From assembly GCA_024277375.1 (NCBI GenBank), contig JAJRVD010000017.1, positions 1 through 36,486 of the forward strand: a DNA stretch of 36,486 nucleotides. Direction: 5' to 3'. Below, one piece after another: positions 7,335 to 28,365 of this stretch. The notes below the pieces were generated by a model that was given only the letters and a program-made list of their open reading frames with translations, had not been told where the DNA came from and did no database searches. Position numbers and translations under genes: made by a program. Numbering within the stretch: position 1 is the first letter of the stretch; each line of letters starts with the position of its first letter. The stretch is from Candidatus Omnitrophota bacterium (lineage in GTDB: Bacteria > Omnitrophota > Gorgyraeia > Tantalellales > Tantalellaceae).

Positions 7335-7499
7335 TGCAAAATGGAGCTTTCGTCATTCGGGCTGTGTCGTAATTTATTTTGCGGATGGCCGCGTACAATA
7401 TATTACTAGGGGTTCGATTTTTCGAACCCGATATAACGGGCTTGATGGATCAAGCCCCTACATTACCACACAGTTTGATTGAAAAAACAGCGTTTTGCA
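7335..7499 (+). mobile_element. MITE-like double-hairpin element, full copy with outer TGCAAAA/TTTTGCA ends
   Basis: TGCAAAATGGAGCTTTCGTCATTCGGGCTGTGTCGTAAT...AAACAGCGTTTTGCA. Confidence 0.9.
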
Positions 7500-7531
7500 T
7501 GAGTCTAATAACGATAAACAAGGAGGATACG

Positions 7532-8104
7532 ATGAGAAAGAAAAAAGGGAATGAATCTGTAGAGACCACCGCGAAGCCTCGTACAGATGAAACATTATTG
7601 GATGTATCCGCGAGTATGCAGGGTACATTGCGTTTTGATGACGCGGTAAATTTAAGGATTAACGGTAAATTCGAAGGAACCCTGGATACAAAGGGCTCTT
7701 TGACGATAGGACAAAAGGCGGACATAAGCGCCAATATAACCGGTGAGAACATTTCTATCGCCGGTGTGGTTAAAGGCAATATCATCGCTACTAAAATTTT
7801 GACCCTGGATACTACAGCCAAACTTGAAGGAGATATCGATACTTCAAAGCTCGTTATTAAAGAAGGCGCTTTGCTTAACGGTCAGATCAGGATGACACAA
7901 CAAAGATCAGATTCCAGCTCGTCATCTTCGAGAGGTGATTGGTTGAGCGTTAATCAGCTTGCCAAATATCTTGAAGTGGATGCTTCCAAGATTTCCGAGT
8001 GGGCCAACGGAGGGATGCTTCCCGGAACTAAAGAAGGGGGCGACTGGGTGTTCGATAGAATTAAGGTCGATCAGTGGATAACGGAAGGTAAAGTAAAGGC
8101 CTGA
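7532..8104 (+). CDS. Bactofilin (polymer-forming) domain fused to a C-terminal excisionase/MerR-like helix-turn-helix domain
   Basis: Start moved to the ATG at 7532, after SD AAGGAGGATACG; the upstream 51 codons of the supplied ORF are repeat DNA. Bactofilin beta-repeats LRINGKFEGTLDTKGSLTIGQKADISANITGENISIAGVVKGNI; C-terminus WLSVNQLAKYLEVDASKISEWANGGMLPGTKEGGDWVFDRIKVDQWI. Confidence 0.85.
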   Translation: MRKKKGNESVETTAKPRTDETLLDVSASMQGTLRFDDAVNLRINGKFEGTLDTKGSLTIGQKADISANITGENISIAGVVKGNIIATKILTLDTTAKLEGDIDTSKLVIKEGALLNGQIRMTQQRSDSSSSSSRGDWLSVNQLAKYLEVDASKISEWANGGMLPGTKEGGDWVFDRIKVDQWITEGKVKA

Positions 8105-8108
8105 TAAT

Positions 8109-8474
8109 ATGCCGGAAAAATTGCTGACATTACGAGAACTATCCGATTACCTCCACATAAAAGAAAAAAAGCTGAAAACGCTTGTAGAAGAGGGAGCGAT
8201 CAGCGCGTATAGGCTAGGTGGAGAACTTTTGCGATTTCGTAAGGATCAAATAGAGGCTATACGGACAGAAATAGAATCGCGTGTTACGGATGCTGATAGG
8301 ATAACAGGCACCGGTGACGTCCATGAAAAAAATACGGGCAGAGATACAAGATTGTCTACACGAGGCGTTTCTTCTGTGTGGGACACCCTTGCGGATTTCT
8401 TTTATTTCGGCGATTTTTATATAGTATCAGGTGCTTTGATAGTTGTACTTCTCATCGTTATCTTCCGCGGGTAA
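8109..8474 (+). CDS. Excisionase-family helix-turn-helix protein with a C-terminal transmembrane segment
   Basis: LLTLRELSDYLHIKEKKLKTLVEEGAISAYRLGGELLRFRKDQI, then C-terminal FYIVSGALIVVLLIVIFRG; 4 nt after the bactofilin-HTH stop. Confidence 0.82.
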   Translation: MPEKLLTLRELSDYLHIKEKKLKTLVEEGAISAYRLGGELLRFRKDQIEAIRTEIESRVTDADRITGTGDVHEKNTGRDTRLSTRGVSSVWDTLADFFYFGDFYIVSGALIVVLLIVIFRG

Positions 8475-8475
8475 A

Positions 8476-8507
8476 TTGTAGGGGCGTATTGCAATACGCC
8501 CCTACAA
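8476..8507. repeat. Perfect 32-bp palindrome, GTAGGGGC-foot family
   Basis: TTGTAGGGGCGTATTGCAATACGCCCCTACAA. Confidence 0.9.
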
Positions 8508-17778: not shown

Positions 17779-17964
17779 TGCAAAATGGAACTTTCGTCAT
17801 TCGGGCTGTGTCGTAATTCGTTTTGCGTATGGCGAATACAATGTATTGGCGGATGGCCGCATAAAATATATTGTAGGGGTTCGATTTATCGAACCCGATA
17901 TAAAGGGCTTGATGAATCAAGCCCCTACATTATGACAAGCTGATTGAAAAAATAGCGTTTTGCA
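17779..17964 (+). mobile_element. MITE-like element, full copy with an internal partial duplication
   Basis: TGCAAAATGGAACTTTCGTC...TAGCGTTTTGCA; contains ...GCGTATGGCGAATACAATGTATTGGCGGATGGCCGCATAAAATATATTG... Confidence 0.9.
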
Positions 17965-28200: not shown

Positions 28201-28365
28201 TGCAAAATGGAACTTTCGTCATTCGGGCTGTGTCGTAATTCGTTTTGCGGATTGCCGCATACAATATATTATATCGGGTTCGATTCATCGAACCCGATAT
28301 AACGGGCTTGATGAATCAAGCCCCTACATTATGACACAGTCTGATTAAAAAAACAGCGTTTTGCA
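28201..28365 (+). mobile_element. MITE-like element, full copy; first hairpin replaced by a longer palindrome
   Basis: TGCAAAATGGAACTTTCGTC...TTATATCGGGTTCGATTCATCGAACCCGATATAA...CGTTTTGCA. Confidence 0.9.

Follow-up and report, generated by a model that had tools for sequence, protein, structure and literature searches.

The window, a stretch of 36,486 nucleotides from an Omnitrophota genome, encodes a bactofilin fused to a helix-turn-helix (HTH) domain (ORF1) and, next to it, an HTH protein with a C-terminal membrane helix (ORF2). This bactofilin-HTH and membrane-HTH pair characterizes the phylum Omnitrophota, as judged from the best 80 named genome matches, all of which are Omnitrophota, and from 191 genomes sampled. 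Its architecture is real and ancient, and it extends across the phylum. The function that we favor, at slightly better than an even chance, is that of a filament-to-membrane adaptor made of two folds that formerly bound DNA, in which both HTHs would bind protein and ORF2 would be the receptor or anchor of the bactofilin polymer. The earlier note on this DNA had described the coordinates, the gap of 4 bases between the ORF1 stop and the ORF2 start, and both architectures, and the sequence, Pfam, AlphaFold2 and Foldseek bear it out on all of these. The features of the pair are:

7520..7526, forward strand: Shine-Dalgarno sequence AAGGAGG of ORF1 (direct sequence reading)
7532..8104, forward strand: ORF1, bactofilin-HTH fusion, 190 aa (Pfam PF04519 and PF12728, AlphaFold2 model)
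7532..7594, forward strand: N-terminal tail of ORF1, basic and disordered, MRKKKG... (pLDDT below 50 at residues 5-19, tail statistics)
7595..7888, forward strand: bactofilin beta-helix of ORF1, residues 22-119 (Pfam, AlphaFold2, Foldseek)
7895..7939, forward strand: flexible Ser-rich linker of ORF1 (pLDDT below 50 at residues 127-133, alignment)
7940..8089, forward strand: HTH of ORF1, residues 137-186, with the acidic recognition helix YLEVDASKISEWA and conserved E148, D150, E156 and W157
8109..8474, forward strand: ORF2, the partner gene, HTH protein with C-terminal membrane helix, 121 aa (Pfam, AlphaFold2)
8121..8258, forward strand: HTH of ORF2, residues 5-50, recognition helix acidic in the family, wing basic
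8376..8468, forward strand: juxtamembrane aromatic motif DFFYFxDFYI and membrane helix of ORF2 (alignments, model, tail lengths)

The AAGGAGG site lies 5 bases before the start of ORF1, which is the sole bactofilin match in this genome. Pfam identifies Bactofilin at residues 22-119 (E 5e-24, 84.7 bits against a cut-off of 27.9) and HTH_17 at residues 137-186 (E 5e-9, 36.7 bits against 27), so that the HTH proposed earlier for the C-terminus is recovered by profile search. In phmmer searches ORF1 matches the bactofilins BacA and Thermus bactofilin. The AlphaFold2 model of ORF1, like that of ORF2, was calculated from alignments built from the collected loci. It has a confident beta-helix and winged HTH, with a mean pLDDT of 85.5, and its top Foldseek matches are Thermus bactofilin and BacA (6rib, 2n3d), followed by RacA-DNA (5i44), BldC-DNA (6ama) and excisionases. 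CbpM (3ucs) is among the Foldseek matches for both the ORF1 and the ORF2 models. L115 in ORF1 aligns with the polymerization residue F130 of BacA and F105 of the Thermus protein, and the position is L, F, I or M in about 98% of 183 sequences. By domain, predicted fold and aligned interface residue, ORF1 is a true bactofilin. Canonical bactofilins (BacA of Caulobacter, ThBac of Thermus and CcmA of Helicobacter) have the same PF04519 beta-helix and hydrophobic residue in the polymerization interface. Their C-terminal tails are described as short and poorly conserved (PMC12448750), whereas ORF1 has a folded HTH conserved throughout the phylum. The Ser-rich linker is short or missing in the alignment of some ORF1 relatives. 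The usual membrane-targeting peptide of bactofilins, which is common but not universal, has the consensus MFSKKKK (PMC12448750). In the ORF1 of the window the corresponding MRKKKG is basic but contains no hydrophobic residue, and tail statistics show MAFKKK- or MALRRR-type N-termini in many relatives.

ORF2 also scores above the Pfam cut-off for HTH_17 (residues 5-50, E 2e-7, 31.7 bits), and phmmer matches it to the excisionase of mycobacteriophage Pukovnik. Its AlphaFold2 model (mean pLDDT 71) runs from an HTH through a disordered linker to a juxtamembrane helix at residues 90-100 and a membrane helix at residues 102-120; BldC-DNA, RacA and Xis are the top Foldseek matches, which agrees with the N-terminal HTH postulated from the letters alone. 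A conserved aromatic stretch, DFFYFNDFYI, directly precedes the membrane helix, and tail lengths show only 0-3 polar residues after it. ORF2 would thereby fit the tail-anchored pattern of an N-terminal domain in the cytoplasm, a single C-terminal membrane helix and a very short tail. Two ORF2 proteins (L066 6545-6862 and L031 1170-1493) do not have the FNDFYI motif, yet are paired with an ordinary ORF1. In three related genomes a second short ORF2-like HTH is found about 4 kb downstream of the pair (L046 10756-10950, L049 6439-6624 and L098 7336-7527).

We find ORF1 matches in 176 of the 191 Omnitrophota genomes drawn, and in about 165 of these 191 the match is of high significance and corresponds to the full-length fusion. 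Among the matches listed, nearly all span both domains (query about 15 to 188). A search for bactofilins in 116 genomes gave a match in 101, with exactly one match in 98 of the 101, and wherever positions were compared the single bactofilin is the fused gene. The fusion is therefore the bactofilin of the phylum and no single-species oddity. One genome has a second full bactofilin beside the fused one, an open frame of 157 aa (G055:C43:7188-7484). In another, the sole match to the bactofilin profile (G029:C8:44497-44703) lies in a protein that begins like a signal peptide and whose repeat region is different; it is probably no bactofilin. On plasmids we find only unfused bactofilins.

We collected 210 loci, representing 183 distinct ORF1-ORF2 pairs. 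Wherever enough sequence follows ORF1, in 208 loci, ORF2 adjoins it on the same strand (207 by computation and L284 read by eye); the other two, L079 and L096, end at a contig edge. Both the fusion and the pairing asked about in the earlier note are therefore kept in relatives, and since they are conserved phylum-wide the architecture is no chance effect. The upstream gene order gatA-gatB-ctp-(polysaccharide deacetylase)-tsaD-mgtC is common to the class. Genus g9, family f8 and genomes G145 and G175 have ORF2 immediately after mgtC or tsaD, and a bactofilin was found in none of these genomes. ORF1 is thus never found without ORF2 in testable loci, but ORF2 is found without ORF1, and some lineages have lost ORF1 and kept ORF2. 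ORF2 must then have a role of its own, and ORF1 alone cannot explain its conserved surface. We reject an obligate mutual dependence of the two proteins, as several lineages retain ORF2 but have no bactofilin. We also reject an origin of the HTHs from mobile elements, given that the pair sits in a conserved housekeeping cluster and that plasmid bactofilins are all unfused. Five loci outside the family of the window (L167, L168, L169, L174 and L178), read by eye, have larB-/larC-like genes (nickel-pincer cofactor) instead of polA after ORF2.

Two families of dispersed palindromes occur around these genes. A perfect 28-base palindrome, GTAGGGGCGTATTGCAATACGCCCCTAC, lies right after ORF2 at 8478-8505; it is found at 22 places in the genome with at most 2 mismatches, compared to 0 for the reversed control, and resembles a dispersed element of the REP or MITE type. 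The second, intergenic family, GGGCTTGATGRATCAAGCCCCTACA, is present in the window at 7438-7462, 2063-2087, 17905-17929 and 28304-28328. It recurs at about 228 places in 2.07 Mb, in both orientations (control 0), which is very dense for a 2 Mb genome.

As a background for the HTH surfaces we took 50 other HTH_17 domains encoded by genomes of the same class, 30 with top scores and 20 with lower scores. The mean net charge of the turn and recognition helix is -2.7 in ORF1 and -2.2 in ORF2, compared to +2.4 and +2.0 in the two background sets; rank tests on recognition-helix charge give p-values of about 1e-22 and 1e-19, which ignore relatedness. Over the whole DNA face the mean net charge of ORF1 is -2.35, against +6.5 and +4.5. 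The wing carries +0.4 in ORF1 and +3.3 in ORF2 (background +4.0 and +2.45). In the 183 pairs, ORF1 has E148 in 95%, D/E150 in 97%, E/D156 in 88% and W157 in 94%, and ORF2 has E19 in 74%, E/D21 in 72%, Y/F34 in 99.5% and R42 in 100%, with GG37-38 nearly invariant. BldC, RacA and the Pukovnik Xis are the closest solved folds to both HTHs, and head-to-tail stacking is a feature of BldC and Xis-type proteins. All three bind DNA through basic recognition helices and wings, whereas the recognition helices of ORF1 and ORF2 are acidic. In BldC, Arg30 and Lys26 read bases while Thr27, Thr29 and Lys33 hold the backbone, and the R30A mutation abolishes DNA binding (PMC5859096). BldC Arg30 aligns with E156 of ORF1, and Glu or Asp occupies this position in 88% of ORF1 sequences. 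The MerR DNA-site positions are Tyr in 86% and Arg or Lys in 63% of the main background set, and both residues are lost in ORF1 and ORF2, as they are in CbpM, where the fold binds a J-domain instead (PMC4063869). The Thr, Tyr and Arg DNA contacts combined with a basic recognition helix are found in neither family. Given the acidic helix, the lost contact residues and the precedent of CbpM, DNA reading by ORF1 therefore appears unlikely; for ORF2, whose wing stays basic, it seems somewhat improbable. That the acidic residues are so strongly conserved points to another ligand, most simply a protein. The scaffold linking cytoskeleton, DNA and membrane that had been proposed for the pair thus keeps a plausible link to the membrane through ORF2, but its link to DNA is disfavored by the acidic helices and the missing Tyr and Arg.

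Bactofilins usually serve cell-wall work, and in other bacteria their anchor is an N-terminal peptide or a membrane client protein. In a filament-to-membrane adaptor, ORF1 would polymerize via its beta-helix, as other bactofilins have been shown to do, and each subunit would display one HTH-fold domain on a flexible linker. ORF2 would be a small inner-membrane protein with its HTH-fold domain probably facing the cytoplasm. Both HTHs would descend from excisionase/MerR-type DNA-binding domains that have lost their DNA-reading residues, and may now serve as protein-protein modules. The membrane-held HTHs of ORF2 could then catch the array of HTHs on the filament, directly or within one complex, by which the bactofilin polymer would be anchored and positioned at the membrane. 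PbpC, a membrane client in Caulobacter, can take the place of the membrane-targeting peptide of BacA (PMC12448750), and by analogy ORF2 is the obvious candidate for a membrane client or anchor of ORF1. Four observations count against such an adaptor: the ORF1 of many relatives has a MAFKKK-type N-terminus that could bind the membrane by itself, the wing of ORF2 matches that of ordinary HTH_17 domains in basic charge, ORF2 is kept in several lineages without bactofilin, and the coupling signal between the HTHs is weak and probably due in part to shared ancestry.

This signal was obtained by mean-field DCA on the 183 distinct pairs (effective number 140). Of the 20 strongest inter-protein couplings, 9 fall in the HTH-HTH block (3.3 expected), and of the 50 strongest, 17 do (8.4 expected); this excess was reached by 0 of 29 global and 0 of 27 within-cluster shuffles. 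Every inter-protein block lies above the shuffles, owing to the ancestry that the two genes share, and some top pairs involve membrane residues, which is physically unlikely; the HTH-HTH excess comes without a clean interface geometry. We regard the covariation as modest support for contact between ORF1 and ORF2. Of 183 paired loci, 182 have Y/F34 in ORF2, and this residue is lost in 3 of 5 ORF1-less lineages, a pattern that fits contact with ORF1, the lineages being few and related to paired ones. Residues matching the head-to-tail interface of BldC are among the most conserved in both proteins (L147, E148, V149 and W157 in ORF1, and Y34, G37 and G38 in ORF2), which hints at a possible BldC-like heterotypic stack. 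The pair may accordingly form a dedicated heterotypic clip, the only bactofilin system of the phylum, in which arrayed ORF1 HTHs stack head to tail with ORF2 HTHs as BldC and Xis do on DNA, the filament replacing DNA as the template; we consider this possible but doubtful.

Contact between the two HTHs would not be needed if the ORF1 HTH and ORF2 each bound a third partner, such as a cell-wall enzyme or a member of the MreB/RodZ complex, the pair being a co-expressed toolkit. The survival of ORF2 without ORF1 in several lineages agrees with this, and so do MreB and an HTH_25 protein of the RodZ type, both of which are encoded separately in all 12 genomes tested. The HTH-HTH coupling excess, the Y/F34 pattern and the finding of ORF1 without ORF2 in 0 of 208 testable loci speak against it, and we judge it rather unlikely. 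The basic wing of ORF2 and its retention where ORF1 is lost would also agree with ORF2 alone being a membrane-tethered DNA-binding regulator, perhaps of its own operon, controlled through protein contact by a degenerate ORF1 HTH. As the recognition helix of ORF2 is acidic at positions 19 and 21 and has no Tyr/Arg pair, and as a search for a promoter-like excess upstream of the pair found none, we hold such a regulator to be unlikely, a little more so than a shared third partner. Least probable of all is that both HTHs bind DNA, so that filaments and membrane protein tie the chromosome to the envelope as with RacA or the Myxococcus BacNOP-ParABS system: some bactofilins do organize ParABS (PMC5703909), Foldseek places both HTHs beside DNA-bound RacA and BldC, and ORF2 keeps a basic wing with an invariant R42, but the negative DNA face of ORF1, the acidic recognition helices and the loss of the contact Thr, Tyr and Arg in both families led us to reject tethering by canonical HTH contact.

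Several known systems resemble a filament-to-membrane adaptor in part. RodZ is a membrane protein whose cytoplasmic HTH-fold domain acts on the filament MreB and not on DNA, to which ORF2 can be likened. RodZ belongs to the HTH_25 family and has a large periplasmic part, whereas ORF2 is of the HTH_17 family and ends 0-3 polar residues past its membrane helix. ORF2 is not RodZ, because the HTH family differs and the HTH_25 protein and MreB are encoded separately, and a replacement of RodZ/MreB by the pair is rejected on the same 12 genomes. RacA, to which both HTHs are similar in fold, is a MerR-fold chromosome anchor. CbpM, the partner of CbpA, has a MerR-type fold that has lost the DNA-binding Tyr and Arg and binds protein, and its gene adjoins that of its partner, as in ORF1 and ORF2; unlike these it is a soluble coiled-coil dimer that regulates a chaperone. 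PbpC in Caulobacter and LmdC in Hyphomonas are, like ORF2, bitopic membrane proteins encoded next to or recruited by a bactofilin, but they are cell-wall enzymes with disordered cytoplasmic tails, whereas ORF2 has an HTH fold and no enzyme domain. The pair thus resembles known bactofilins with membrane clients. For the bactofilin-HTH architecture itself we found no description in open-access full text (subscription papers lay outside the search), and nothing on an Omnitrophota bactofilin in the open-access literature.

Bactofilins are widespread, and how they choose their membrane partners is poorly understood. Omnitrophota are abundant and almost entirely uncultured, and their cells are often very small. 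A sole bactofilin with a folded adaptor and a fixed membrane partner would be a minimal two-gene system for bactofilin-membrane coupling, and the pair would illustrate clearly how folds that once bound DNA can become adaptors of the cytoskeleton.
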